A stretch of 64,000 bases of DNA. Origin: Myxococcales bacterium 68-20 (lineage in GTDB: Bacteria > Myxococcota_A > Polyangia > Polyangiales > Polyangiaceae). The notes under the pieces are model-generated. The model worked only from the letters and a program-made list of their open reading frames with translations. It had not been told where the DNA came from and made no database searches. This document shows positions 7,630-50,248 of the stretch, one piece after another; the first letter of the stretch is position 1; each line of letters begins with the position of its first letter. Where the stretch lies: contig MKVQ01000042.1 in assembly GCA_001899635.1 (NCBI GenBank), positions 248,001 through 312,000 of the forward strand, read 5' to 3'. Position numbers and translations under genes: made by a program.

Positions 7630-7810
7630 GCTCCTCGGAGCGCGTCGATGTTTCGCTCGCGCCGGTCCGTCGCGCTGTTCGCGATGGAGCTCCTCCGAGT
7701 GACGGGACGGATCGTCCCTCCACCCACGAGCAGCCGGCCGACGAGTCGAGCTCGCGAAGTGCGTCTTCGCTGCAGAGCTCATCGCCCCGTCCGTCCGGGT
7801 GACGGCGGGC

Positions 7811-7855
7811 GTTCTCGGTAGGGCGAGAACGGGCGTTCTCGCGCGGCTCGAGAAC
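7811..7855. promoter_or_regulatory. Four alternating GTTCTCG/CGAGAAC half-sites
   Basis: Half-sites GTTCTCG (7811-7817), CGAGAAC (7824-7830), GTTCTCG (7835-7841) and CGAGAAC (7849-7855) sit in the gap upstream of the lipoprotein at 7914. The two central sites form CGAGAACG-GG-CGTTCTCG. Its core, GAAC-N4-GTTC, has the spacing of LexA-type SOS boxes of the Gram-positive class. The outer pairs can each form a 7-8 bp hairpin. Operator versus attenuator cannot be decided from sequence. Confidence 0.5.
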
Positions 7856-7913
7856 CCCCAGTGATCACGCGGGTCGAGGCCCGGCACTCGAGTTGCACGA
7901 GGCTCGGATCGTC

Positions 7914-8447
7914 TTGCTTCGCCGTGCTTCCGCTTCCCTCGCCTTGATTGGCTTCTCCTTGCTTGCAGGTTGTCAGCCGCCGTCGGAGACGACGCGTGAC
8001 AAGGGCGTGATCGGCACGTCCGGCCATGCGCTCGTCGAGGCGCGCGCGCCGGGTGACAACCATCATTGGAACGTCGACGTAAACCTCCGTTCTGCACCGG
8101 AGGGCACGTACGCGCTCCTGTTCTCGCCGACTGCGCCGGCCCCGGCCCCCACAAATCGAGACTGGTTCGCGATCGCACCGAATGACCCGGCCCTTCGGTG
8201 CGCGGCGGCTCGAGCGAAGGGATGTTCGATCGGCGACCACGGCGACGTCGTCGGGCTCACGACGATCGGCCCCGGTGGAACCGGCGTGCTTCGCGCCGTG
8301 TTCGTCATGGGGTCCGGTGGATGGTTCCGTGTGATGCGGGTCGACGGTGCGACCGAGAGAACCGTTCCCTTCGACATCCAGATCGTGAGCGAGGCGCTGA
8401 CGAAGGACGAAGAGGCCTACCGCTTCACGATCGAGCAGCTCCGTTGA
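7914..8447 (+). CDS. Small lipoprotein, unknown function
   Basis: Lipoprotein of about 177 residues. I chose TTG at 7914, because it gives a compact signal peptide (LRRASASLALIGFSLLAGC) with the lipobox Cys near residue 20; TTG at 7893 is the alternative. The mature part resembles an immunoglobulin-like or C2-like beta sandwich, by its alternating strands (WNVDVNLRSAPEGTYALLF, GVLRAVFVMGSGGWFRVMRV). It contains two Cys, in LRCAAARAKGC. No family recognised. A dyad-rich intergenic region precedes it (7811-7855). Same orientation as the larger lipoprotein at 8578. Confidence 0.7.
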   Translation: MLRRASASLALIGFSLLAGCQPPSETTRDKGVIGTSGHALVEARAPGDNHHWNVDVNLRSAPEGTYALLFSPTAPAPAPTNRDWFAIAPNDPALRCAAARAKGCSIGDHGDVVGLTTIGPGGTGVLRAVFVMGSGGWFRVMRVDGATERTVPFDIQIVSEALTKDEEAYRFTIEQLR

Positions 8448-8577
8448 GGAGCGCGTCTCGCTCGGGGCTCACACGACGCCACGACGAGACAACGAGTGAT
8501 CAAATCCGCGGCCTGGAGGGATGAGCAGCAGATGGGTGCCGCTACTCGCGGTGCCACTTTCCTCCAAGGAGGCCGCT

Positions 8578-10185
8578 TTGCTTCTTTCCCGACGAACGCT
8601 CGTCACGTCCAGCTCCGCCTTTGCTTCGATGCTGCTTGCCTTTGCTGCTGCTTGCGGAGGGGCCTCGACGAACGAGGCGCCACGAAACGGAGACGATGCC
8701 GGCTCGAACGCCCCCGACGCGCGCCGGCCGGACGAAACCGATGAAGACTCCGGATCCGACTCGGGCACGGATCCGGATGCAGATCCCGATCCCGATCCCG
8801 ATCCGGGCGCGACGCTGCTGGCCAAGGATGTCCTCACGCTCTACGGCGTGACCTCCGACGACCACGTCGTCTACGCACGAAGGACCGCATCGGGCGAACG
8901 CACGCTCCAGGCGGTCCCCCTCGGCGGCGGCACCGTGACGACGCTGGTCGCGACCATCTCCGCTGACGCGGTCGTCACGGTGAAGGGCAACGCGGTCGCG
9001 TTCTGGCGATCCATCGATGCGACCACCGGGCTCGGGTCCCTCTCGTACTGGACGCCTGCGGGAGGCGCCGTCCTCGACGCCTCGAATCGATCAGTGCCCG
9101 AGTTCTTCTGGGCGTCGTCGGACGGCGCTCGGATCGCGTTTCTCTCGGATGCGACGCTCGACCAAGGTGCGCTGGACTCGGCGAAGCTGACCGTCGCCGT
9201 GACGGCGACGCGTACGCAGACCGACGTGCTCACGGGTGACGAACGGCTCGCCTTCGGCGACGGCTCGTGCGGCTCGCACATCGGCTTCGCCGGACAGAAG
9301 GTGGTGGCGGCCTACTGTGCGCCCGGGAGCGACGGCGCTCGCCTCGCGCTCGTGTCCGACGCCGCGACACCGGTGCGGCGAGTGCTGGTCGACCACGGGC
9401 TCGCGCCGTTCTGGTCGGCGGACACGACGGCCTCGAAGATCTTCGCCGTCGCGGCGAATGATCGGGAAGGCCGCATCATCACGTACGAGCCGACCACCGT
9501 GCTGACGACGGTGCTCGAGACGGGCGTGACCCGGGGCTTCGTGAAACAGGACGGAAGCTCGGTCGTCTACCACGCCGGCACGACGCTCCGCCAAGCGTCC
9601 TTCGTCGACCCGGGGGTGGTCACGCCGGTCACGCTGGCCGACGACGCTCGCGCGCTCCTCGACGTGAGCCTCGATCAGTCGACGGTCCTCTTCCACTCGC
9701 TGGAGGGCCGCCCGGTCGATCCGCAGAACCCCGACGGCGATCGCTACGTCGACCTCCGCACCGTCAGCACGAACGGCGGTCAACCGGAGGTCCATGTCGC
9801 GACCGAACGAGCGCTGCCACTGACGCTGTCGGCAGACGGCGCGTACGCGCTCTACTTCTCGAACGGTCCGAGGTTCAACGCCACGGCGCTCGACGGCACC
9901 GGCGAGCGTTCGATGCGGATCGACTTCAACGGCCTCGCAACGACTCCCGCGGGCTCGGCAGCCGTTCTCTCGCGAAACCCTCGGCAGCATGGCCAGATGA
10001 CGGTGGTCGATCTCGTGCTCGCCGACTTCACGGCGCCTGCGCCGGGCAACGCGATGGGCACCAAGCCGATCATCGACGCCGTTCCGTCGAGCGCCTTCCG
10101 CTTCGGCGTCGCGTCGCCGCGGAAGCTCGCCTACCTGCGCGCCACGAACGCCGGCCTGGCCCTCTACAGCCGCGCGCTTCCCTGA
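8578..10185 (+). CDS. TolB/WD-like propeller lipoprotein
   Basis: Lipoprotein of 535 residues. TTG at 8578 follows a perfect AAGGAGG at 5-base spacing, which decides the start over an ATG at 8521. The signal peptide ends at a lipobox (LAFAAAC) and is followed by a long acidic spacer of Asp-Pro and Asp-Ser repeats. The rest is a series of repeated beta units of TolB/WD40-like type (LYGVTSDDHVVYARRT, FFWASSDGARIAFLSD, LTLSADGAYALYFSN, PRKLAYLRATNAGLALYSR). Such domains bind peptides or proteins, but no ligand can be inferred. Convergent with the aconitase, with a strong hairpin between the two ends. Confidence 0.75.
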   Translation: MLLSRRTLVTSSSAFASMLLAFAAACGGASTNEAPRNGDDAGSNAPDARRPDETDEDSGSDSGTDPDADPDPDPDPGATLLAKDVLTLYGVTSDDHVVYARRTASGERTLQAVPLGGGTVTTLVATISADAVVTVKGNAVAFWRSIDATTGLGSLSYWTPAGGAVLDASNRSVPEFFWASSDGARIAFLSDATLDQGALDSAKLTVAVTATRTQTDVLTGDERLAFGDGSCGSHIGFAGQKVVAAYCAPGSDGARLALVSDAATPVRRVLVDHGLAPFWSADTTASKIFAVAANDREGRIITYEPTTVLTTVLETGVTRGFVKQDGSSVVYHAGTTLRQASFVDPGVVTPVTLADDARALLDVSLDQSTVLFHSLEGRPVDPQNPDGDRYVDLRTVSTNGGQPEVHVATERALPLTLSADGAYALYFSNGPRFNATALDGTGERSMRIDFNGLATTPAGSAAVLSRNPRQHGQMTVVDLVLADFTAPAPGNAMGTKPIIDAVPSSAFRFGVASPRKLAYLRATNAGLALYSRALP

Positions 10186-37266: not shown

Positions 37267-38001
37267 TCAGGCGCTGACTTCGACACGTCCGGTCGGTGTC
37301 TGGCCCGGAACGGGGCTGATGACCGAGCTACGTCGATCCCACCAAGACTGCGCGATCCGGCCGGCGGTTTCGCGCCCGCCGAGCCCGAAGGCGAGCGCGC
37401 CTGCCAGCGCGAGAGCGCCCATCGTGAACATGAACGCCGCGTTCACGATCGCCGGAGCGATCTGCAGCTCGCGGAGCGCCAAGAAGGCGCCCACGGCGAT
37501 GATGGCTCCCCGCACCACGCCGGGGAGGACCCGGGGCGTCGTGGTCCTGGTGGTCTCGACGGCGGCCCCCTCCGGCTCTACCGCACGGCGGTAGAACCGA
37601 TCGCGAGCCCAGTTGCCGAGGAAGAGCGCCACCCCGAAGACGAAGGCCGCGCCCACGATGTGCGGCAGGTAGCCGATCACCGCAGCGAGCCCATTCGCGA
37701 CGAAGTCGAGCATCCATGCACGCGACGCCTGCATGACGGTCACGACCATGACGATCAGGTAGACGATCGAGCCGAGCCAGTACGAGGCGGTCTTCGACTC
37801 CGCCGTGCTCGCCGTCGTGAGCCCGAGCTTCGCCATCAGACGGTCGAAGCCAAGCCGATGCGCCAGCGCCCGTGTCGCGCGCGCGAGGATGGCCGCGATC
37901 AACCAGCCGACGAGCAGGATGACCAGCCCAGCGATGAGGTTCGGTAGAAACGCCACCAGGCCATCGAAGGCCGTGGTCAGCCAGTGAATCGTCGTGTTCA
38001 T
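37267..38001 (-). CDS. TM-helix repeat (mechanosensitive channel-like) membrane protein
   Basis: 244 residues. ATG 38001 follows a perfect GGAGG at 7 bases, so the longer frame from 38031 is rejected. It resembles the conserved TM-helix family found at the N terminus of some MscS relatives. Five membrane segments are visible (LVAFLPNLIAGLVILLVGWLIAA, SIVYLIVMVVTVMQ, VIGYLPHIVGAAFVFGVALFLG, GVVRGAIIAVGAFLAL, VNAAFMFTMGALALAGALAFGLGG), arranged as repeated amphipathic units with FLPN and YLPH turns. No MscS beta domain follows, so gating by tension is only a guess. Confidence 0.8.
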   Translation of the reverse strand: MNTTIHWLTTAFDGLVAFLPNLIAGLVILLVGWLIAAILARATRALAHRLGFDRLMAKLGLTTASTAESKTASYWLGSIVYLIVMVVTVMQASRAWMLDFVANGLAAVIGYLPHIVGAAFVFGVALFLGNWARDRFYRRAVEPEGAAVETTRTTTPRVLPGVVRGAIIAVGAFLALRELQIAPAIVNAAFMFTMGALALAGALAFGLGGRETAGRIAQSWWDRRSSVISPVPGQTPTGRVEVSA

Positions 38002-38336
38002 CAGTGCGCCTCCGGAGGTCGGCCGACGCAACGGGTGTGCCCGTCACGGCGAACGCGCCGGCGCCGACGACCCCGTCTCTACGGCAGCCGCCGGGCCTCT
38101 TCGATTCATGGCCTCATCCGGATGTCCCGGGAGGCCGAGCTGGCCGGAGGCCGCGCGATGTCGGTCCGAGCTCGCGGTCCGGCCACGCCGTCCGCGCAGA
38201 CGTCGTCCTCGGAGCGCTCGCCGCCGCGTGTCCGGAGCGGCCGACGGAGCCACCCGAGCGCCGATCGACGGGCCTGTCCGCACCGTGGGGAAATCTGTCG
38301 ACGAAACCCGCGCACGCTGTACTAGGTTCCGCGCCC
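38002..38336. other. 335-base divergent intergenic region
   Basis: Separates the divergent TM-helix gene and acidic-protein gene. I see no gene, repeat or convincing promoter, apart from the strong ribosome-binding site of the minus-strand gene at its left end. Confidence 0.4.
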
Positions 38337-38691: not shown

Positions 38692-41031
38692 TCAGAACAG
38701 GCTCGTCTGAGCCCCTGCGAGCTTCTCGAACGAGGTACCGAGGAACGAGAGCACCACGTCGCACGCAGGCGCGATCTGCCGCTCCAGATAGTGCGGATGG
38801 TCGATCGGCGACGCGCGCAGCTCGAGCGGTTCGGCCCCCCGCGTGGTCATCACGTACTCGACCTCGGTCGTCGCCCCCTCGCTCTCCGCGGCCTCGAGCA
38901 TCCGCGCCGCCTGGACATGCGGCGGCGCCCCAGGGCCGCTCGAGCCGCGCGCGTAGGCGTCGAGACTCCGCCGGACGCGCTTGCGATAGACGAGCTCGTC
39001 GTCGAGCCGGCCCGCGACCACGTCGCGCGCGACGGCGACGAGCCACTCTTCGAAGGGCTGGTCCGACAGCACCCGGCGGAGCAGCTCGAGCTGCACACGC
39101 CGCGCGAGCGGCGTCCAATCGCGACGCACCGCCTCGAGCCCGCGCACGACAAGCTCGACCGATCCGTCGGCACGGCGCACCGTGCCGGCGTAGCGCTTCT
39201 TCGAGCCGCGATCGGTCCCGCGCGTCGTCGGCATGAGAAAGCGGAGGTAGTGCGACTCGAACCGCAGCTCGAGATGGCTCACCACCCGTAGGTCGCGAGC
39301 GATCTCCTCGGCGAGCAGGCGCGTGACCTCGACGGCGAGCGCGCGTCCGCGGACGGCGATCTCCTCCTCGGAGGCCGCGTCGCCGACATGGACGAAGAGC
39401 GAGTCCGTGTCGCCGTAGATCACCGGGAGCCCGGCGTCCTCGAAGAACGACCGCGCGCGCTCGATGATCGCGTGACCGCGACGAGTGATCGACGTGGGCA
39501 GCCGCGGATCGAAGAAGCGGCAGCCCGGCGTGCCGAGCACTCCGTAGAACGAGTTCATCAGGATCTTGATCGCGCGCGAGAGGGCGGCGTTCTTCGACGC
39601 CATCGCTGCGCTCCGCGCCTCGTGAAGCATCGTGACGAGCTCGGGCAGGATCGCTCCCTCGCGCGCGAACGCAGCACCGTCCTCGCCGGGGACGGGATCC
39701 TCGCCCGGCTGCGAGAGGCCGAGCGGATCGATGCAAAACGTACGGATGATGCTCGGATACAGGCTGCGGAAGTCGAACGAGAGCACGCCCCGGTAGAGGC
39801 CCGGGATCGAGTCGAGGACGTGGCCACCAGGGCTTGCCGCGACCTCGAGATCGTAGCCGACGTCGCGGGCGACGAAGCCGCGCCGATGGATCCGCGGCAA
39901 GTAGAGGTGGTCGAAGGCGGCGACCGAGCCGCCCTGCCGATCCATCGGCAGCCCCGTGAGGCGAGCGCGCTCCATCGCGAAGCCGAGGAGGTCGGCCTTG
40001 GCGAAGATGTCGAGCACGAGGCGACAGTCCTCGAGGTTGTACTCCGCGAGCTTCTCGACATCCTCGGCATACATGCGCCGGATCTCGGCGACCGGATCCG
40101 CGGTGACGGCGATCTTCTTGCCGCGCCCTAGGAGCTCGCGCGCGACGTGCTCGAGCGTGAAGCGCTCGAAGTTGAAGGTCGCCGACTTCAGCGTCGCGAT
40201 GCCGTCGAGCACGACCCGCCCCGGCACACGCGCGATCGATGCCCGCGCCGGCGTCGAGCCCGACACGACCCGCGCGCGCTCCCCCGCCCTGCCGATCGCG
40301 AACGGCACGCCGAGCTCGCGCGAGCGCGCGTCGAGAAGCGAGAGATCGAACTCGAGGACGTTCCATCCGCAGAGCACGTCGGGATCGAGCGCGACGATCT
40401 CGGCGAACAGCCGCACGAGCAGCTCCCGCTCGTCACGCACGAAGACGATCGGTCGAGGGCCAGGGGCGGCCCCGCCCGGCGCGCTTTTGCGGACGAAGAC
40501 ACGCTCATGGGTCGCCGTCGCCACGGCCGCGGAGAGGAGCGGCCCCCCGAAGCCGTCGGTCTCGATGTCGAGCGCGAGAACCGACAGCGCGACGTCGAGA
40601 TCGGGCGCCGCCTTGATCTTCGGGCTCTCGAAGTGGAGGACGCCGCGGCGCTCCTTCGCCACTCCGTCGATGCGGAGCGATCCCGTGACGAAGCGCTCCA
40701 TCACGTAGCGGTCCGATGGCTTCACGTCGGCCTCGAGCGTGGGCTCGCCGAGCTCGCGCATCCGTGTCCGCTCCTCGACGAGGGCGCGCTGCGAGCGGAA
40801 GTAGAGCGCGTCGACCGGCTCGCCCTCCATCGTCGTGAGGGGTCGCGGCACACGACGCCCCGCATGCGTGATCGCCATGCGCGGGACGAACATCACGGCC
40901 TCCTGCCGTGGCAGCCGAACACGCACCGGCGCTTCCTTTGCGCGTGCCCAGAGGACGACCTCGACGCCGTCGTCCGCGTCGCGCCACTCGCGCGACAGGA
41001 GGAACGCATCGACCTGCCTCACCGCTGCCAT
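38692..41031 (-). CDS. polB: DNA polymerase II (family B)
   Basis: 779-residue family-B polymerase of the bacterial Pol II type, used in lesion bypass and replication restart. The 3'-5' exonuclease is present (DIE at 155-157, YNLEDC at 331-336). Polymerase motifs are SFDFRSLYPSII (418-429), KILMNSFYG (489-497) and YGDTDS (539-544), all intact, so both activities are expected. The protein ends QTSLF, a match to the beta-clamp-binding pentapeptide. ATG 41031. It lies downstream of the MscS gene on the same strand, with a 107-base gap containing an inverted repeat (41047-41087) that could be its own control site. Confidence 0.95.
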   Translation of the reverse strand: MAAVRQVDAFLLSREWRDADDGVEVVLWARAKEAPVRVRLPRQEAVMFVPRMAITHAGRRVPRPLTTMEGEPVDALYFRSQRALVEERTRMRELGEPTLEADVKPSDRYVMERFVTGSLRIDGVAKERRGVLHFESPKIKAAPDLDVALSVLALDIETDGFGGPLLSAAVATATHERVFVRKSAPGGAAPGPRPIVFVRDERELLVRLFAEIVALDPDVLCGWNVLEFDLSLLDARSRELGVPFAIGRAGERARVVSGSTPARASIARVPGRVVLDGIATLKSATFNFERFTLEHVARELLGRGKKIAVTADPVAEIRRMYAEDVEKLAEYNLEDCRLVLDIFAKADLLGFAMERARLTGLPMDRQGGSVAAFDHLYLPRIHRRGFVARDVGYDLEVAASPGGHVLDSIPGLYRGVLSFDFRSLYPSIIRTFCIDPLGLSQPGEDPVPGEDGAAFAREGAILPELVTMLHEARSAAMASKNAALSRAIKILMNSFYGVLGTPGCRFFDPRLPTSITRRGHAIIERARSFFEDAGLPVIYGDTDSLFVHVGDAASEEEIAVRGRALAVEVTRLLAEEIARDLRVVSHLELRFESHYLRFLMPTTRGTDRGSKKRYAGTVRRADGSVELVVRGLEAVRRDWTPLARRVQLELLRRVLSDQPFEEWLVAVARDVVAGRLDDELVYRKRVRRSLDAYARGSSGPGAPPHVQAARMLEAAESEGATTEVEYVMTTRGAEPLELRASPIDHPHYLERQIAPACDVVLSFLGTSFEKLAGAQTSLF

Positions 41032-41138: not shown

Positions 41139-41999
41139 TCAGCTCGGCAGCGTGGCGGAGCTCGCCGGCACGGCGAGACCCGAGGCATCGAGACGACGGT
41201 GCAGCAGCGCCGGCGGGAGGATCCGGTGCTTCTGGAACGCAGCCATGACGCGCCTCGTGAGGTCGCTCTCGAACTCCCGCTCGTACTTCACGTCGACGAC
41301 GTGAGCCCTCGCGCGCAGCCGGATCGCCGCCACGTTGTCGTGGAGCGCCTGATTGACGAACACGTCCCACGGCTTCTTGGCGTAGGCGAATCGGCAGCTC
41401 GTGAGCGCGTCACCGACGAGACGCTCGGCCAGCACGATGTCCTGGTCGACGCCGATGAAGAAGTCGACCTGCATCATCATGTCGAGCGCCCCCCAGTTGC
41501 CGGAGGTCACGACGTCGGTGAGGAACTTGTTGTTGGGGATGGTGACGACGTTGTCGTCCAGCGTGAGCATCCGGACGGACCGGAGACCGATGGCCGTGAT
41601 CTCTCCGTACACGGTGCCGAAGCTCACTCGGTCGCCGACCTGGAACGGACGGTCGACGATGATGATGACACCGGCGAGGATCGACGCGGCGAGGTCCTTC
41701 AGCGCGAAACCGATCGTCACCGCGGCGGTACCGCCGAGCGCGATGAGGACCTCGCGGGTGAGATTGACCGAGAGCGCAAGGGCGACGCCGAGGCCCACCA
41801 GCCAGATCGAGAAGCGCATCAGCGTCGCGATCTGGTTGATGAGGAGACGCTTGTCGCCCCACCGGGCTCCGACCCCGTGGAGCGCCCGCGTGATGAACCT
41901 CACGAGCACGTACGTGCCGACGAGGACGAGAAGCGCCGTGGCGAGACCGCCGACGCGGATCACCTCGAACAGATTCGCGTCCTGTGTCGTTCCGTTCAT
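41139..41999 (-). CDS. Small mechanosensitive channel, MscS family
   Basis: 286 residues, the minimal MscS architecture. Three membrane helices lie at about 13-37, 58-80 and 83-113; the third is the pore helix (VLIALGGTAAVTIGFALKDLAASILAG). The beta domain (VDRPFQVGDRVSFGTVYGEITAIGLRSV, VVTIPNNKFLTDVVTS) and a C-terminal alpha/beta region (about 180-265) follow. ATG 41999 follows GGAGG at 5 bases. It is 27 bases downstream of the large NTPase membrane protein and should be co-transcribed with it. In MscK-like channels the periplasmic coiled coil and extra helices are fused to the pore; here they appear to be supplied by the neighbour. Confidence 0.93.
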   Translation of the reverse strand: MNGTTQDANLFEVIRVGGLATALLVLVGTYVLVRFITRALHGVGARWGDKRLLINQIATLMRFSIWLVGLGVALALSVNLTREVLIALGGTAAVTIGFALKDLAASILAGVIIIVDRPFQVGDRVSFGTVYGEITAIGLRSVRMLTLDDNVVTIPNNKFLTDVVTSGNWGALDMMMQVDFFIGVDQDIVLAERLVGDALTSCRFAYAKKPWDVFVNQALHDNVAAIRLRARAHVVDVKYEREFESDLTRRVMAAFQKHRILPPALLHRRLDASGLAVPASSATLPS

Positions 42000-42026
42000 C
42001 TTCGCCTCCGTGCTCCGCTCCGTCCC

Positions 42027-45000
42027 TCAGGTCTCGATCAGATGCTTGCGCCTCAGGTAGCGGAGCACCACCGGCCACCACCGCGGCGTGATCCGGAAAC
42101 GTTCGCCATCGCGCTCGGCGATGTCGTGGTCGACGAGCCGCTGGAACGCCGCCTCGCACGAGCGCCGCGAGAGCGCGAGCGTCGCCGCTGCCTCGTCGAG
42201 CGAAAGAGATGCGTGCCAGACGATGGACGCGAGGACGAACCGCGCCGGCTCTTCGAGGATTTCGAGCGCTTGGCCGTCGGGGTTCGTGAAGAGTCGAACC
42301 CGCACTCGTCCGGGGCTGTCGTGGACGAGCGCGCGGCCCCACACGTGGAGCGCCACGCGCGGGGAGCCCTCGGAGTAGTCCCAGATCAGACGGTTGTAGT
42401 CGCGCATCGTGGTCAGGATTCGCGCGTTCTGATTTCCGTCGTGGACGTCGTCGACGAGCAAGTCGTCGTAGAGGATCTCCAGCCCGCTCACCCCGTTCCG
42501 TCGCGCCAGGAGCGCGCCGATCTCGGCCTCCGACCAGGGCGCCAGATGGACGTGCGCGTTGAAGCACTGTTCGCCCTTCTCGATCCAGGAAAGGAGCTCC
42601 CAGGAGTAATGCGCGAAGGCGACCACCCAGAGGACCGCATCACCCGTGAGCTCCATCAGCTGAACGAACGAACGCCAGCCCTCGAGCGTCTCGCCTCCAC
42701 GCAGGAACCAGAGCTGCGCGTCGTCGACCATGATGACCCGCTTCTCGCGACCGAGGTGCCGAGCGAGCGCATCGACATCGCGCGTCGTCGACGGTGCGCC
42801 GGTCGCGGCGGCGATCACGGAGAGGACGTCCTCGGGCCGGATCGCACGCCGGGCGTTCTCGATCCTCGTCACACGCGTGCCGCGGCACCGCTCCTCGGCC
42901 GCGTGGAGCCACGATGTCTTGCCGAAGCCGGTCCTCCCGATGACGACGGTGGAACCGCCGCGCTGCCCCTCTTTCCATCGCGCGAAGCGCTCCCCGAAGT
43001 CGTCGAGGCCGGGATAGCGATCGATCGCGAGCCGGTCGTCCGTGACGGGCCGCTCCGAGAAGAACTCGAGGACTCCGGGCTCGAGGCGAACCTCGTCGCA
43101 GGACGGATCGTGCGTGACCTGCCGCTCGAGACGACGCCGGAAGAGGAAGGCGAGCGCCTTGCGTGAATGTTCGAACCCGAGGACGAAGCGTCTCAGCGCG
43201 CGAACGATGCCGCTCGCGAGCAGCACGATGAATGCGGCGAGGACGACGAAGATGCCGACCCAGTGAGTGCGCGTCTTCGAGACGAGCCGGCTGAATGCAG
43301 AGGCGGGCTGGACGCGGAGATACACGCTGGCGATGTCGTCACGCCAGCTGCGGATGAGGACGAAGGCGATGAGCGCCGCCATCATCCACGCACCACGCAC
43401 GACGAGGGCGTGGAGGTAGCCCCGTCCCACGACCGCTGCCGAGCTCTCGAGGAGCACGGCAAAGAAGAAGGCCGAACGACCGACGAGCCGCACGGATCGG
43501 AGGATGCGCTCACCGACCTCGCCGGCGAGCATGCCGCCTCGGCTCGCCGCGGACGCGAGACCGCGATGCGTGACCGTGAGCGCGAGCCGGTAGATCGCGT
43601 ACCAGAGCAGCAGCGTGTACGGCACCGACCACGCGGTGTTCGTCACGTCCACGCCGGGAACGTGCGGGACGACGAGGATGGCGGCGAGGGCGACGAGCTC
43701 ACCGCCGACCGCGTCGAGCGCGGACGTCCCACGCTGGAGCGCGCGCAGGAGCCCAGGCCGACGTACCGCTCGTGCAGCGTGGTTGCGCGCGGCGCGCAGC
43801 CAGGCCGAGCGCCGGCGACGAACGAGCATCGTCGCCCAGAGCAGCGTCCCGAGCGCGACGATCTCGAAGGAGACATGCGCGATCGCGGATGGCCGGCGGA
43901 GGTCGTGCAGCGTCTCGCGCAACGTCTCCCACCCGCTCGCGCGCCACCAGCGAATCTCGAGCTTCACCCGCGCCGCTTCGCGGAACCCCTGTGCCTGTCC
44001 CTCGGGACCGAATCCGAGGAGCCGCGCGCGCTTCGCCTCGGAGACGCGGTGAAGCAGCGTGATGCGCAGTCCGTTGAGCTCGCGCTCCGCGTGCATCACC
44101 GAGCGGAGCGCGGTCCACGTCTCCTGGCGCTCGTCCAGCTCGAGGTCAGTCGCCGTCTTCTCGAGCTTCGCCAGCTCCTCGGCGAGCCGCTCACGTTCGC
44201 GAGCGAGCTCCGGCTCGCTGACCACCGGCAGCACGACGCTCCCCTTCGGTCGCGGCGCCGCGGTGTTGGCTTCGATCCGGTCGAGGAGCCCCTCGGCGCG
44301 TGTCCGAAGCGTGACGAGCTCCGTGATGACCCGATCGAACAGGCTGTCGGCCAGCTCGCTCCCGGCGGCGACCTCCACCACATCGTGCCGCATCCGCTCG
44401 AGCATCGCGGCCCACGTCACCGACGCGGCCTCGGCCTCGCGCCGACTCTCGGCGATGTCGGCGCGCGCCCGCAGCTGCGCACCGCGCGCCGCCTCGACCC
44501 GCGCCCGAACCTCCGCAAGCTGACGTTCGACGTTGCTCCGCGCCTCCTGCGCCGCCTGGAGCGCCTTGCGCTGCGCCTCCTCCGCGAGCGCGGCCTCTCG
44601 ATCGGCCTCCTCGCGCTCCCTCCGCGTCGTCTCGACGCGAACGGCGTCCTGCTCGGCCGCGAGCAACGCCGCTCGCTCCGCCGCAGTAAGGGCAAGGATC
44701 CCCGCTCGGACCTCGAGCGCCGCGACCGCGATGCGCCGCAGCAGCTCCTCCGACGCGTCGGCGGCGAAGAGGCTGTCGACATCGCTCGAACCGCCGGCCC
44801 CGCCATCCCCGGGCGCCTCCGCATCACGCAGAGCCGACGCCGAGGCCGGGCTCACGCCGGGAGCGTGCGAAAGTCGTATCCTCGCGAGCTCGAGCTCCCG
44901 CGTCACCTCGACGAGGCGTCGTTCGACCGCGCTCTGGTCGCGAAGGTCGAGACGAAAGAGATCGGCGCTCCGCCTCGTCCCGAGCCGTCCTTCACGAAAC

Positions 45001-45263
45001 GCGAGGAGCGACGACAGCTCGACGCGCCCCGCTGCAATCGCAACGTCGAGCGCGCTCTCCGCATCCGCCAGGCCCGCGTCGAGGTTCGACACGTCCGCGT
45101 CATGCGTCGCGTCGGTGATCGACGCGTCGACCGGTCCTGCGTCGACTTCCGGCACCGCATGCGCGCTGCGCCCGGTCGCAAGAAGGACGATGATCGCCAC
45201 GACCGCGGCGAAACTGCGAACGAAGTACCTCTGAACGGGAGAGCGCTGGCGGCCGACGTGCAT
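42027..45263 (-). CDS. Coiled-coil/membrane/NTPase fusion protein (MscS partner)
   Basis: 1078 residues from ATG 45263; an earlier ATG at 45338 would precede the signal peptide. Order: signal peptide 1-36; periplasmic part 37-455 with long coiled coils (about 170-290 and 350-410); about six membrane helices between 460 and 690 (near 463-483, 520-535, 545-562, 597-613, 618-637, 668-688). The cytoplasmic end has Walker A GRTGFGKT (776-783) and Walker B VIMVDDAQ (843-850), then a winged-helix-like end (SLDEAAATLALSRRSCEAAFQRL). The periplasmic/membrane half resembles the MscK sensor region, but the pore is missing and encoded by the next gene. I know of no described channel gated by such an NTPase partner; function is inferred. 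Confidence 0.85.
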   Translation of the reverse strand: MHVGRQRSPVQRYFVRSFAAVVAIIVLLATGRSAHAVPEVDAGPVDASITDATHDADVSNLDAGLADAESALDVAIAAGRVELSSLLAFREGRLGTRRSADLFRLDLRDQSAVERRLVEVTRELELARIRLSHAPGVSPASASALRDAEAPGDGGAGGSSDVDSLFAADASEELLRRIAVAALEVRAGILALTAAERAALLAAEQDAVRVETTRREREEADREAALAEEAQRKALQAAQEARSNVERQLAEVRARVEAARGAQLRARADIAESRREAEAASVTWAAMLERMRHDVVEVAAGSELADSLFDRVITELVTLRTRAEGLLDRIEANTAAPRPKGSVVLPVVSEPELARERERLAEELAKLEKTATDLELDERQETWTALRSVMHAERELNGLRITLLHRVSEAKRARLLGFGPEGQAQGFREAARVKLEIRWWRASGWETLRETLHDLRRPSAIAHVSFEIVALGTLLWATMLVRRRRSAWLRAARNHAARAVRRPGLLRALQRGTSALDAVGGELVALAAILVVPHVPGVDVTNTAWSVPYTLLLWYAIYRLALTVTHRGLASAASRGGMLAGEVGERILRSVRLVGRSAFFFAVLLESSAAVVGRGYLHALVVRGAWMMAALIAFVLIRSWRDDIASVYLRVQPASAFSRLVSKTRTHWVGIFVVLAAFIVLLASGIVRALRRFVLGFEHSRKALAFLFRRRLERQVTHDPSCDEVRLEPGVLEFFSERPVTDDRLAIDRYPGLDDFGERFARWKEGQRGGSTVVIGRTGFGKTSWLHAAEERCRGTRVTRIENARRAIRPEDVLSVIAAATGAPSTTRDVDALARHLGREKRVIMVDDAQLWFLRGGETLEGWRSFVQLMELTGDAVLWVVAFAHYSWELLSWIEKGEQCFNAHVHLAPWSEAEIGALLARRNGVSGLEILYDDLLVDDVHDGNQNARILTTMRDYNRLIWDYSEGSPRVALHVWGRALVHDSPGRVRVRLFTNPDGQALEILEEPARFVLASIVWHASLSLDEAAATLALSRRSCEAAFQRLVDHDIAERDGERFRITPRWWPVVLRYLRRKHLIET

Positions 45264-45431: not shown

Positions 45432-46250
45432 TTACTGCGCGCTGGGCTTCGCGAGCCGGTACACCACTTCGAGCTGGGTGGAGACCGAGACCTCCCCAGG
45501 CGCCACCGGCGTCTCGAAGCCCCCCATGTCGGCCTTCGCCATGCTGTACATCGGCCGCGGACCGCCGCCGCCGACGCTCTCGCTCACCGAGACGACCTCA
45601 CCGAGCGTCCGGCCCTGCGTCTTCGCGAGGGCCTCCGCGCGGGCTCGCGCATCCTGAGCCGCCTTCTCACGCGCTTCGGCTTCGAGGGCCTCCGGCTTGT
45701 CGATCTCGAACGAGACCCCCCACACCTCGTTCGCCCCCGCCGCGACGGCAGCATCGAGCAGCCGACCGGCCTTCTCGATATCGCGAATGGTGACGCGCAC
45801 CGTGTTCGAGACGCGGTACTGCCCCGCGCGTGCCGGCGCGGCGGCAGTCACGCCGGCGCTCCCGGGCTTGGCCGGCGCGCTCATCACGACCGGATGAGGC
45901 TCGTGGCGCTCGAAGTTGATGGAGAAGTTCGCGGTCTGGATGTCCTTGTCCGCAACGCCCTCCTTCTTGATGGCAGCGATGAGGTTCGTCATCTGCTGGT
46001 TGGCGAGACGCGACGCCTCCGCCACCGTCGGTGCGGTGACCGCGATCCCCATCGTCGATCGCGCGATGTCAGGCTTCCGCGAGACCTCCCCCTTTCCCAG
46101 TACGGTGACGACGTTCGTACGCGCGTCCGCTTCGGACGGCACCGTGGCAGCCGACTGAGACGCGGCCGGGGAGCACCCGGTCGCCAGCGCAGCGGCACCG
46201 ACGAGAAGAGCGACAACGAACGACTTCGACATGAAATGCGAACGCAGCAT
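45432..46250 (-). CDS. SIMPL (DUF541) domain lipoprotein
   Basis: 272 residues. ATG 46250 has GAGGA 6 bases upstream; a second ATG six codons later is also possible. Signal peptide with lipobox ATGC. The SIMPL/DUF541 domain spans about 45-270: VVTVLGKGEVSRKPDIA, VAEASRLANQQMTNLIAAIK, RVSNTVRVTIRDIEKAGRLLD, NEVWGVSFEI, AREKAAQDARARAEALA and VSTQLEVVYRL. An Ala/Pro/Gly linker is inserted near 140. SIMPL proteins are periplasmic or outer-membrane oligomers often linked to oxidative or envelope stress. No adjacent functional partner. Confidence 0.9.
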   Translation of the reverse strand: MLRSHFMSKSFVVALLVGAAALATGCSPAASQSAATVPSEADARTNVVTVLGKGEVSRKPDIARSTMGIAVTAPTVAEASRLANQQMTNLIAAIKKEGVADKDIQTANFSINFERHEPHPVVMSAPAKPGSAGVTAAAPARAGQYRVSNTVRVTIRDIEKAGRLLDAAVAAGANEVWGVSFEIDKPEALEAEAREKAAQDARARAEALAKTQGRTLGEVVSVSESVGGGGPRPMYSMAKADMGGFETPVAPGEVSVSTQLEVVYRLAKPSAQ

Positions 46251-46522
46251 GAACGATCCTCTAAGAGCGCGAGCGAAGTGCTCGCGAAGGGGTTGAAGGG
46301 GACTGCCGATGGAACAACGCGGCATCACGAGCGTCCTTACAACGTCTCAGCTGCGAAAGTGCAGGATGAACGCCCGAGCCCGGGTCTTCCCGCTACGGTC
46401 GAGGTTGATGCCCAGGGCGGGCAGTCGCGCTGGTTACGGTAGCGCTTGGTCCCCGCCCGCCCACGTGAGGGCACCGAAGCAGCTTCCGATCGCGGAAGTC
46501 GCCGCCCGCCGGGCCCGCGCTC

Positions 46523-47959: not shown

Positions 47960-50248
47960 GTGCATCGCCCTCGCTTCGACCTCGGTATTCGAAACCTCAT
48001 CCCTGACTGGAAAGCGCTCTTCTCACGCCAACACCTCGGTGCCGACCTCGGCGCCGGGCTGACGGTGGCGTGCATTGCCATCCCCTTGTCACTCGCGATC
48101 GCCCTTGCATCGGGCGTCGCCCCCGCTGTCGGCCTCGTCACCGCCATCATCGCCGGGATCGTTTGCGGCGTCTTCGGCGGTACTCCGCTCCAGGTGAGCG
48201 GGCCTGCCGCCGCGATGGCCGTGCTCATTGCCTCGCTCATCCAGCAGCATGGCCTCCTCGGGCTGCTCCTGGTCGGCATCGGGTGTGGGCTCCTTCAGGT
48301 CGCCACCGGGGTTTTGGGGCTCGGTCGCTTCGTCCGGCTCGTCCCCCTCCCCGTCGTCGAGGGATTCACCGCGGGCATCGGCGCCATCATCCTCATCGGC
48401 CAGCTCCCCCGAGCGCTGGGGCTCCCGCCTCCCGACCAGTCACACGTTTTCAGTGTCTTCAGCCACATCGCCGAGCTCGCTCATCAAGCGAAGCCGGCCG
48501 CCGTCGGCGTAACGCTGCTCACGCTCGCCATCATCTTCCTCGTCCCGCGAGTGACGAAGCGCGTCCCGTCTCAGCTCGTCGGAGTCGTCGCGGCAACGCT
48601 TGCCACGGTGGCCCTCGGGCTCGATACCGCCGTCATCGGCACGATCCCGCGCTCACTCCCGCTGCCGAGCCTCCCGGAGATCCCCTCCGACCTCCGCCTC
48701 GGCCCCATCGTGGGCTCGACGTTCGTCGTCTTCGCGCTGGCCTCACTCGAGACCCTCCTTTCCTCCTCGGCCGTCGACCGCCAAGCCTCGGACCAGAAGA
48801 GGAGCGATCCGGATCAGGAGCTCATCGGGCAGGGGCTCGGCAACATCGCGAGCGCCCTGTTCGGCGGAATTCCGGTGACCGGCGTCATCGCGCGGTCCGG
48901 AGCGAACATCCAGGCCGGCGCCAAGACGCGTCGCTCGGGCATCATCCACGCGATCGCGCTCATCCTCGCGGTCTTCGCGCTCGCGCCGCTGATCGAGCGC
49001 ATCCCCGTCGCCGCCCTCGCGGGCGTCCTCTTCTCCGTCGCCATCCGGATGCTCAACCCGGCGACGTTCATGCACCTCTGGAAGCACTCGCGCTCGGACG
49101 GCATCGTCTACGCCGTCACGTTCGTCACGATCGTCTTCGTCGACCTTCTCGAAGGCGTGCAGTGGGGTGTCGTCGCCGCCCTCGCGATCGCGGCGATCCG
49201 GCTCGGGCGCCCCCGCATGGCGTTCCGCGCCGTCCCCCTCCGCGACCACCATCACTTCGCCTTCGAGGGTCCGCTCACGTTCCTCTCGTCGCTCGACCTC
49301 GACGGGGTCCGCCGTGAGCTCGGATCGCTCGAGCCGGGTCAGTGCGTCGTTTTCGATGCTCGCGACGTCACCACGATGGACGCTTCGGGTGTCGAGATCC
49401 TGGCCGGCCTCGTTGCCGATGCCCGCGGGCGCAAGCTGACTCCGATCGTGCTCGGCGTTCCGGGCGCCGAACGAGCGCAGGTCGCCGCCGCGATCACCAA
49501 TGCCGAGTCGGTCATGGTCGACGACGAGCGCGGTCTCAGCGAGAAGCTCGGCGCGGGCGTCGCGATCGTCGATGCCCGACTGCGAGCAGGTGTCGAGCGC
49601 TTCCGCGCGACTGCACGTCCGCGCTACACGAACCTCTTCCAGCAGCTCGCCGAGGGCCAGGCACCTCACACGCTGTTCATCACGTGCTCGGATAGCCGCA
49701 TCAATCCGAACCTGATCACGTCGATGGAGCCGGGCGAGCTCTTCATCGTGCGCGATGTCGGCAACCTGGTCGCTCCGGCGTCGGACATGCTTGCATCGCC
49801 GGCAGGCGCGGCGATCGACTACGCGGTCGGCATCCTCGGCGTGCAGAAGATCGTCGTGTGCGGCCACTCTGGCTGCGGCGCGGTGAAGGCGCTGCTCTCG
49901 GACGATCCGCTCCCGGCCGGGCTCAAGAACCTGCACGCGTGGCTCGAGACGACCGAAGCGCGCCAGCGACTCCGCAACCTGCCCGGTTCGCTTCACCCGG
50001 ACGAGGTCGCGAAGATCAACGCGCTCGCGCAGCTCGATCGGCTCCGGAGCTATCCGGTCGTCGCCGAGAAGCTCGCGGCTGGCGAGCTCTCGCTCACGGC
50101 GTGGTACTTCGACCTGAAGAGCGGCGAGCTGGAGGAGTGGTCGACCGCGCTCCAGCGGTACGTGCCGGTCGGTACGGCGGAGGAACGCGCGTCGGCAAAG
50201 CGGCTCGTCGCGCACGAGGGCCTGCACGACCACGCTGCAGCGCAGTGA
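47960..50248 (+). CDS. SulP transporter-STAS-beta-carbonic anhydrase fusion
   Basis: 762 residues from GTG 47960 (GAGG 7 bases upstream). Residues 25-415 are a SulP/SLC26-type anion transporter with its multi-helix core (LGAGLTVACIAIPLSLAIALASG, GGTPLQVSGPAAAMAVL, GNIASALFGGIPVTGVIARSG). A STAS domain follows (about 430-530, with TTMDASGVEIL). The C-terminal 215 residues are a beta-class carbonic anhydrase with zinc ligands C576 (CSDSR), H636 and C639 (GHSGC) and the D578/R580 dyad. Coupling of bicarbonate transport to CO2 hydration is the natural reading, as proposed for similar BicA/SulP-CA fusions. Substrate is not proven by sequence. Confidence 0.93.
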   Translation: MHRPRFDLGIRNLIPDWKALFSRQHLGADLGAGLTVACIAIPLSLAIALASGVAPAVGLVTAIIAGIVCGVFGGTPLQVSGPAAAMAVLIASLIQQHGLLGLLLVGIGCGLLQVATGVLGLGRFVRLVPLPVVEGFTAGIGAIILIGQLPRALGLPPPDQSHVFSVFSHIAELAHQAKPAAVGVTLLTLAIIFLVPRVTKRVPSQLVGVVAATLATVALGLDTAVIGTIPRSLPLPSLPEIPSDLRLGPIVGSTFVVFALASLETLLSSSAVDRQASDQKRSDPDQELIGQGLGNIASALFGGIPVTGVIARSGANIQAGAKTRRSGIIHAIALILAVFALAPLIERIPVAALAGVLFSVAIRMLNPATFMHLWKHSRSDGIVYAVTFVTIVFVDLLEGVQWGVVAALAIAAIRLGRPRMAFRAVPLRDHHHFAFEGPLTFLSSLDLDGVRRELGSLEPGQCVVFDARDVTTMDASGVEILAGLVADARGRKLTPIVLGVPGAERAQVAAAITNAESVMVDDERGLSEKLGAGVAIVDARLRAGVERFRATARPRYTNLFQQLAEGQAPHTLFITCSDSRINPNLITSMEPGELFIVRDVGNLVAPASDMLASPAGAAIDYAVGILGVQKIVVCGHSGCGAVKALLSDDPLPAGLKNLHAWLETTEARQRLRNLPGSLHPDEVAKINALAQLDRLRSYPVVAEKLAAGELSLTAWYFDLKSGELEEWSTALQRYVPVGTAEERASAKRLVAHEGLHDHAAAQ

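Follow-up and report, generated by a model that had tools for sequence, protein, structure and literature searches.

The window analysed here, a stretch of 64,000 nucleotides from Myxococcales bacterium 68-20 (contig MKVQ01000042.1, positions 248,001 to 312,000), carries a gene for a membrane-anchored P-loop nucleoside triphosphatase (NTPase), P0001, followed on the same strand by the gene of a small MscS channel, P0002. This NTPase-MscS pair is conserved, beyond what a local accident would leave. The NTPase and the MscS channel are the constant unit of a family in which the N-terminal membrane module is exchanged, and this unit is tied to potassium and osmotic transport. The paired MscS channels lie apart from unpaired ones, and the trees of NTPase and MscS largely agree. 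Considering these results, we lean on balance towards a dedicated channel unit, in which a minimal MscS pore is paired with a membrane-anchored protein whose cytoplasmic P-loop NTPase is the pore's constant partner.

Conservation of the Gene Pair

Searches with the C-terminal 357 residues of P0001 in the genome of the window and its relatives (29 genomes in all) gave matches in 11 of them; with full-length P0001 as query, no relative was found among the genome contigs. The genome of the window holds one family member, at 85.9 bits, with the next match at 28 bits, and the nearest members found belong to Labilithrix metagenome-assembled genomes (MAGs). Outside Myxococcota the census covered three alphaproteobacterial plasmids, and on two such plasmids the pair is present, the gene after the NTPase being annotated as MscS. 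No family match was obtained in viral contigs, nor in plasmids queried with a type B and a type C NTPase, one of each (the types are described below).

A profile of 17 NTPase domains was run against 282 Myxococcota genomes. Matches were found in at least 256 of them at E 1e-5, the weak ones that were inspected being ordinary AAA+ proteins, and in at least 104 (hand count) at E 1e-15 or better; the census counts are lower bounds, as seven first-look candidates were scored per genome. From the 150 matches listed, 126 were examined, and the remaining 24 all rank below 121. In 15 genomes, the weakest family match (67.9 bits, a 140-residue fragment) was separated by a score gap from the best generic AAA+ match (42.1 bits); counted per whole open reading frame (ORF) the gap is narrower, the generic ORF L254 reaching 62.5 bits with two matches. 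Generic AAA+ proteins (AAA_22, AAA_16) share the Walker A/B core with the family and differ from it both in this gap and in their neighbours: MscS was found at none of 16 generic control loci, which hold 18 of the 35 weaker (below-gap) matches listed, within the 3.4-7.5 kb examined.

The family loci examined were 144, namely, a first set of 97, the plasmid locus L194, six borderline loci, and 40 more. Six (L095, L226, L272, L286, L290, and L291) were excluded because their contig ends 524 bases or less past the NTPase match, which left 138 with enough downstream sequence. In 133 of these (92 + 1 + 3 + 37), the NTPase gene is immediately followed, on its own strand, by a separate MscS gene. The MscS profile used combines P0002 with the sequences it matched in the family loci; P0002 alone as query detected 78 ORFs at E below 1e-5 in the first 97 loci. 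One further NTPase, L271 (1750-4254, minus strand, genome G086), is fused in frame to the MscS cage domain, running into positions 164-244 of the 244 of the MscS profile, with the pore missing.

The two genes are also close to each other. Counting ATG, GTG, or TTG, a candidate MscS start is no more than 100 bases away from the NTPase stop in all 129 pairs measured, and at or before the last NTPase base in 73 of them (52/92 + 21/37); GTG and TTG were accepted here in GC-rich DNA in which open frames run long, and with ATG only the distance is within 100 bases in 79 of the first 92 pairs. The original prediction had looked to homologues of the large protein with an MscS gene near downstream, and this is what was observed in 133 of 138 loci; the opposite outcome, homologues usually lacking such a neighbour, did not occur.

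In the Caulobacter plasmid locus L023 a second MscS gene (7640-8578) stands directly behind the paired one, and in the tree described below it groups with the unpaired channels.

Architecture of P0001 and P0002

The features of the pair, in window coordinates, are as follows.

42027-45263, minus strand: P0001, membrane NTPase of 1078 residues, type A of the NTPase-MscS family (ORF calls, Pfam, family profile)
45156-45263, minus strand: putative signal peptide, residues about 1-36 of P0001 (hydropathy peak at residue 22; cleavage ...GRSAHA|VPE placed by eye)
43899-45155, minus strand: predicted periplasmic, mostly helical region of P0001, residues about 37-455 (hydropathy; helices of a low-confidence model)
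43194-43886, minus strand: membrane region of P0001, about five helices, residues about 460-690 (hydropathy; type A profile)
42294-43133, minus strand: P-loop NTPase domain of P0001, residues about 711-990 (AAA_22 match; family alignment)
42915-42938, minus strand: Walker A GRTGFGKT of P0001, residues 776-783 (sequence, alignment)
42714-42737, minus strand: Walker B VIMVDDAQ of P0001, residues 843-850 (sequence, alignment)
42339-42368, minus strand: GxPxxALxxW motif of P0001 (GSPRVALHVW), residues 966-975 (family alignment)
42030-42266, minus strand: possible winged-helix-like C-terminal end of P0001, residues about 1000-1078 (weak: Pfam matches to MarR_2/HTH_24 below the cut-off, in one relative, L131)
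41139-41999, minus strand: P0002, MscS channel of 286 residues, 27 bases downstream of P0001 (Pfam, nearest solved chains, tree)
41508-41696, minus strand: MscS beta domain PF00924 of P0002, residues 102-164 (Pfam)

The two ORFs had been proposed earlier with these lengths, this strand, and the 27-base gap, together with both Walker motifs and an MscS identity for the downstream gene, and the ORF calls, the alignment, and Pfam agree with all of it. A longer form of P0001 (1103 residues) is also open from an upstream TTG in the ORF reading. AAA_22 covers residues 768-873 at E 1e-7, above its cut-off; both Walker motifs are intact and the hydrolysis-linked T/S is kept too. The proposal of about six membrane helices is right as to the signal peptide and the presence of helices and slightly high as to their number: the hydropathy profile shows the signal peptide and about five helices (near residues 470, 525, 600, 628, and 678), and six is reached only by counting the signal peptide. 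Borderline peaks were seen at 187 and 875, the first being the sole candidate within the periplasmic stretch, a region earlier proposed to hold coiled coils, across which long helices run in the low-confidence model. With a cleaved signal peptide followed by an odd number of helices, the NTPase would come to lie on the cytoplasmic side.

The solved-structure search with P0001 gave no match and the NCBIfam scan nothing further for it. STAND models gave none above the cut-off in P0001, and nSTAND appeared below the cut-off in the relatives L131 and L106. Neither the Rfam nor the tRNA scan gave a match in the window. AlphaFold runs with three sequences each reached a mean predicted local distance difference test (pLDDT) of 44 and 49; in a fold search the low-confidence NTPase model resembles AAA+ folds (ORC/Cdc6, ClpX, RuvB, and FtsH), which is a weak hint.

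In P0002, PF00924 was matched at E 5e-18 (65.3 bits, cut-off 20.2), and three hydrophobic stretches were found by hydropathy. The hallmark of MscS is a glycine/alanine pore helix and then an RPF turn, and P0002 has both: GFALKDLAASILAG...DRPF. Among the type A channels aligned, G97 is present in 59/59, A99 in 56/59, G110 in 58/59, and P118 in 59/59. The solved chains closest to P0002 are MscM, other MscS-type channels, and MscK.

Exchangeable Modules and Trk Linkage

By profile matching, the N-terminal modules of 97 proteins were assigned to type A (61), type B (9), type C (22), or left unassigned (5). Type A is the periplasmic-helical membrane module found in P0001. Type B is an SLC12-like cotransporter N-terminus, exemplified in Pfam by L035 (AA_permease at E 2e-48, above the cut-off; SLC12 at E 1e-4, below it), and type C is a cation:proton antiporter (CPA) N-terminus, exemplified by L037 (Na_H_Exchanger PF00999, 73.8 bits against a cut-off of 26.2). 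Transporters of these families move potassium, chloride, sodium, or protons. In both type B and type C, the transporter has long cytoplasmic regions with the NTPase at the end. Regarding the five others, L125 is a type B gene truncated by the contig end, L131 resembles a divergent type A, L081 is a fragment of 323 residues, and L135 and L140 are NTPases that by hydropathy have no membrane segment, with MscS still downstream. Since only the NTPase and MscS recur in all types, they are the common parts of the system.

The search for Trk genes covered the type B and type C loci and L140, with Pfam confirmation at two loci and at L140. Both trkH and trkA are found upstream on the same strand in 15 of the 22 type C loci, among them L037, whose stretch includes only a piece of trkA. 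Trk genes were not found upstream in L036, L121, L138, L141, L142, and L144, and L139 has only 0.9 kb of upstream sequence. None was found at the seven type B loci having upstream sequence. In L140 (2-5504, plus strand) trkA, trkH, and the soluble NTPase are followed by mscS on one strand.

Directly upstream of P0001 there is a SIMPL/DUF541 (YggE-like) gene (45432-46328, minus strand). It was considered as a component of the system and dropped, as only three of the 97 loci, whose upstream reach varies, showed it (the window, L024, and L025). The yggE gene of E. coli K-12 is also near mscS, with argO between them.

Phylogeny of NTPase and MscS

An unrooted MscS tree was calculated with 103 domains, comprising 64 of the 92 pairs (31 of the 59 of type A) and 39 unpaired channels, 29 of which were the best PF00924 matches, a selection that may favour canonical ones. 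All but one of the unpaired channels, including MscS, YnaI, MscK, and MscM of E. coli, fall on one side of a branch with a Shimodaira-Hasegawa-like approximate likelihood ratio test (SH-aLRT) support of 96. The exception, L006 (from the genome of the window, C24, near 79446-79586), is a weak MscS match (E 8e-4) located on a long branch beside paired type C channels, and for the type B/C NTPase profile no match is listed on its contig. The 31 type A channels form one group (SH-aLRT 97) together with L081, L131, and L135.

In the NTPase tree of these 64 members the main groups of the MscS tree reappear, with L125 joining type B and L135 falling on the side of type A. The NTPase tree also sets a small type C group (L132, L134, L139, and L144) apart from the main type C, with supports of 97 and 100 for the two groups; in the MscS tree the support of this split is weak (58). 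From these sequences two origins of the CPA fusion are suggested, which would mean that the input module was exchanged while the pair stayed constant; the strongly supported branches in either tree are also compatible with a single type C origin. Path lengths in the two trees gave, without control for the species tree, rank correlations of 0.78 overall, 0.61 in type A, 0.85 in type B, and 0.95 in type C.

Walker Residues and the GxPxxALxxW Motif

The catalytic residues were compared in the alignment of the three types. The Walker A lysine K782 is present in 57/61 type A, 9/9 type B, and 17/22 type C proteins, and the T/S that follows it in 55/61, 9/9, and 4/22, respectively. Walker B D847 is found in 52/61 type A, 4/9 type B, and 12/22 type C proteins, with an acid at this position in 6/9 of type B and 20/22 of type C. 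Position 848 is acidic in 40/61 of type A, is D848 in 9/9 of type B, and carries an acid in 1/22 of type C. The Walker A T/S and the second Walker B acid are gone from most type C proteins, so a need for hydrolysis in every part of the family is improbable; in type C the domain may bind nucleotide without hydrolysing it, or may serve for docking.

Among the steadiest features across the types is GxPxxALxxW: G966 is present in 97/97 proteins and W975 in 55/61 of type A, 9/9 of type B, and 21/22 of type C, the proline being lost in type B and in most of type C. The motif is a candidate for a function common to the types.

Proposed Mechanism

We infer that the cytoplasmic cage of MscS is where the NTPase domain docks; the cage is proposed as the docking site because of the single fusion L271, which joins an NTPase to the C-terminal third of MscS. 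The membrane module would pass the state of transport or of the envelope to the NTPase, and the nucleotide state together with that of the module would make MscS easier or harder to open. Solute release would thereby follow energy status as well as ion transport or envelope strain. For the window pair, the periplasmic helical module would supply the input, perhaps as a sensor of the envelope.

A precedent is found in TrkH-TrkA, where TrkA is reported to close TrkH in the presence of ADP and to open it in that of ATP (PMC6987127), so that nucleotide control of an ion channel via a partner protein is an established bacterial logic. Like the pair, TrkH-TrkA consists of an ion channel and a cytoplasmic nucleotide-binding partner, and it is the same trk genes that stand upstream of type C; unlike the pair, the partner is of the RCK/Rossmann kind rather than a P-loop protein and the channel serves uptake rather than being an MscS.

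Several points weigh against the dedicated channel unit. Four family loci (L066, L126, L138, and L141) have no adjacent MscS gene; L066, with 702 bases to the contig end and no MscS, was scored as a miss, and so was L138, where MscS comes 2.1 kb further on, past a long open frame on the other strand. For the adjacency of the genes, shared transcription would be a sufficient explanation, and relatedness alone could give much of the rank correlations. Both structure predictions were poor. The fusion L271, on a single MAG contig, may be natural or may be the remnant of a deletion and has little weight alone. With most of type C devoid of the hydrolysis residues, binding or docking alone is possible there. 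Finally, the contact and its location, the nucleotide control, and the direction of the effect are what we infer.

Alternative Explanations

The explanation that best survives beside the dedicated channel unit is that of a shared operon only, in which the NTPase regulates its own membrane module and MscS is a separate, co-expressed safety valve. Types B and C end in the NTPase after long cytoplasmic regions, so the domain could act within its own chain, and the presence of trkA-trkH next to many genes of type C shows a clustering of osmotic genes at these loci. We consider this explanation unlikely, taking into account that NTPase and MscS are precisely the parts common to all types, that L135 and L140 keep MscS while having no membrane segment, and that the paired MscS channels form a separate set with a tree resembling that of the NTPase.

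It is also conceivable that the role of the AAA+ protein is to insert, assemble, or position the MscS heptamer and that it remains outside the working channel, ExeA/GspA being an example of such an assembly role. The AAA_22 match, the AAA+ folds matched by the low-confidence NTPase model, and the periplasmic anchor of type A would fit; regulation is the better fit to the Trk linkage and to the replacement of this anchor by ion transporters, and the Walker residues are largely lost in type C, which makes an assembly factor rather improbable.

The original prediction read the pair as a split channel with an MscK-like sensor on P0001, and supposed that gating or assembly would depend on the NTPase. 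The conserved NTPase-MscS pair is borne out; its derivation from MscK/MscM, a chain cut in two with an NTPase added, has a short profile match of 30 columns on its side, and we regard it as quite improbable. Counted over both chains, the pair has the broad layout of E. coli MscK/MscM (signal peptide, periplasmic helices, extra membrane helices, and MscS pore), and MscM and MscK are among the nearest solved chains to P0002. Unlike the pair, MscK/MscM is, from annotation and general knowledge, a single chain without an NTPase, with its pore elsewhere in the tree. When the 61 type A N-terminal regions were compared with five MscK/MscM-like sequences, 30 of 811 columns were aligned, and on both sides these fall at the first membrane helix (score 47.5, probability 48%, E 1.8e-4); the controls scored 34.6 (reversed profile), 23.5 (type B), and 16.6 (type C). 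Against E. coli MscK and MscM alone the match spans 140 columns with a probability of 6.7%. This hints at a possible distant kinship of the type A membrane region with MscK/MscM, and a membrane helix followed by arginines could yield such a match by chance. The type A pores and those of E. coli MscK/MscM belong to different supported groups (SH-aLRT 97 and 96), and 31 of 97 proteins begin with an unrelated ion transporter instead. The Pfam MscK-type domain (MscS_TM) is absent from P0001 at E 0.1, and the MscK family model PF12794 was found in 4 of 77 Myxococcota genomes. MscK is treated here as an analogue of the type A system, to which it may be distantly related.

That P0001 is a membrane-tethered transcription regulator, acting through its winged-helix end with MscS as a neighbouring target, is very improbable: it would account for the HTH-like C-terminus seen below the cut-off in one relative, against which stand the persistence of MscS adjacency across differing membrane modules and the fact that winged helices are common after AAA+/STAND cores in non-regulators. 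The faintest chance is left to a defence role, in which the NTPase would sense an invader and open MscS so that growth stops; NTPase-effector pairs of such form exist in defence systems, and against it are the linkage to trkA-trkH and ion transporters and the PADLOC results on five proteins, with none for P0001, P0002, L035, and L037 and a weak PtuA match (E 4e-4) for L022.

Comparison with Known Systems and Significance

MscS channels are usually viewed as stand-alone valves opened by membrane tension. Bacterial cyclic nucleotide-gated (bCNG) channels are MscS-type channels with a cyclic-nucleotide-binding domain, a ligand control of an MscS-type pore such as is proposed for the pair, and differ in that the binding domain is fused to the pore without an NTPase partner. 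In the ATP-sensitive potassium channel (KATP), formed by Kir6 and SUR, the domains are of ABC type, unlike the window NTPase.

It is possible, although we hold it doubtful, that the distinct MscS branch is the output of a shared P-loop hub. One NTPase-cage interface would accept, as its input, periplasmic sensors, K-Cl type cotransporters, CPA antiporters, or Trk operons; a single membrane complex would thereby compare ion transport, envelope strain, and nucleotide state and set the release valve, as a bacterial controller of volume and potassium, KATP-like in logic. The likeness is that in KATP a separate subunit is reported to confer nucleotide sensitivity on the channel (PMC7015859); the differences are that KATP is eukaryotic and its pore unrelated.

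In the open-access literature, no NTPase-MscS pair is described among the titles and abstract beginnings listed, and no MscS beside SLC12-NTPase or CPA-NTPase fusions among the matches listed. The terms MscS and mechanosensitive channel have a count of zero in the main text of two surveys of bacterial NTPase systems, of which the main text was the part covered. The parts all come from known families; their combination, and its regularity, appear to be new, which points to an undescribed control system for cell salt and pressure in the myxobacterial group. If the dedicated channel unit is true, a large branch of MscS channels would have an NTPase partner and exchangeable ion-transport modules, and solute release would be placed under the control of energy and ion state. 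The coordination of potassium uptake, efflux, and emergency release would then become addressable in a two-gene system.

Other Genes near the Pair

A DNA polymerase family B (Pol II-like) gene (38692-41031, minus strand) lies 107 bases past the MscS stop on the same strand. About 3 kb downstream of the MscS gene there is a protein of 254 residues (37267-38031, minus strand) with the conserved helix MS_channel_1st_1 (PF05552). Finally, at 47960-50248 on the plus strand, a Sulfate permease family transporter is fused to a carbonic anhydrase domain in a protein of 762 residues.

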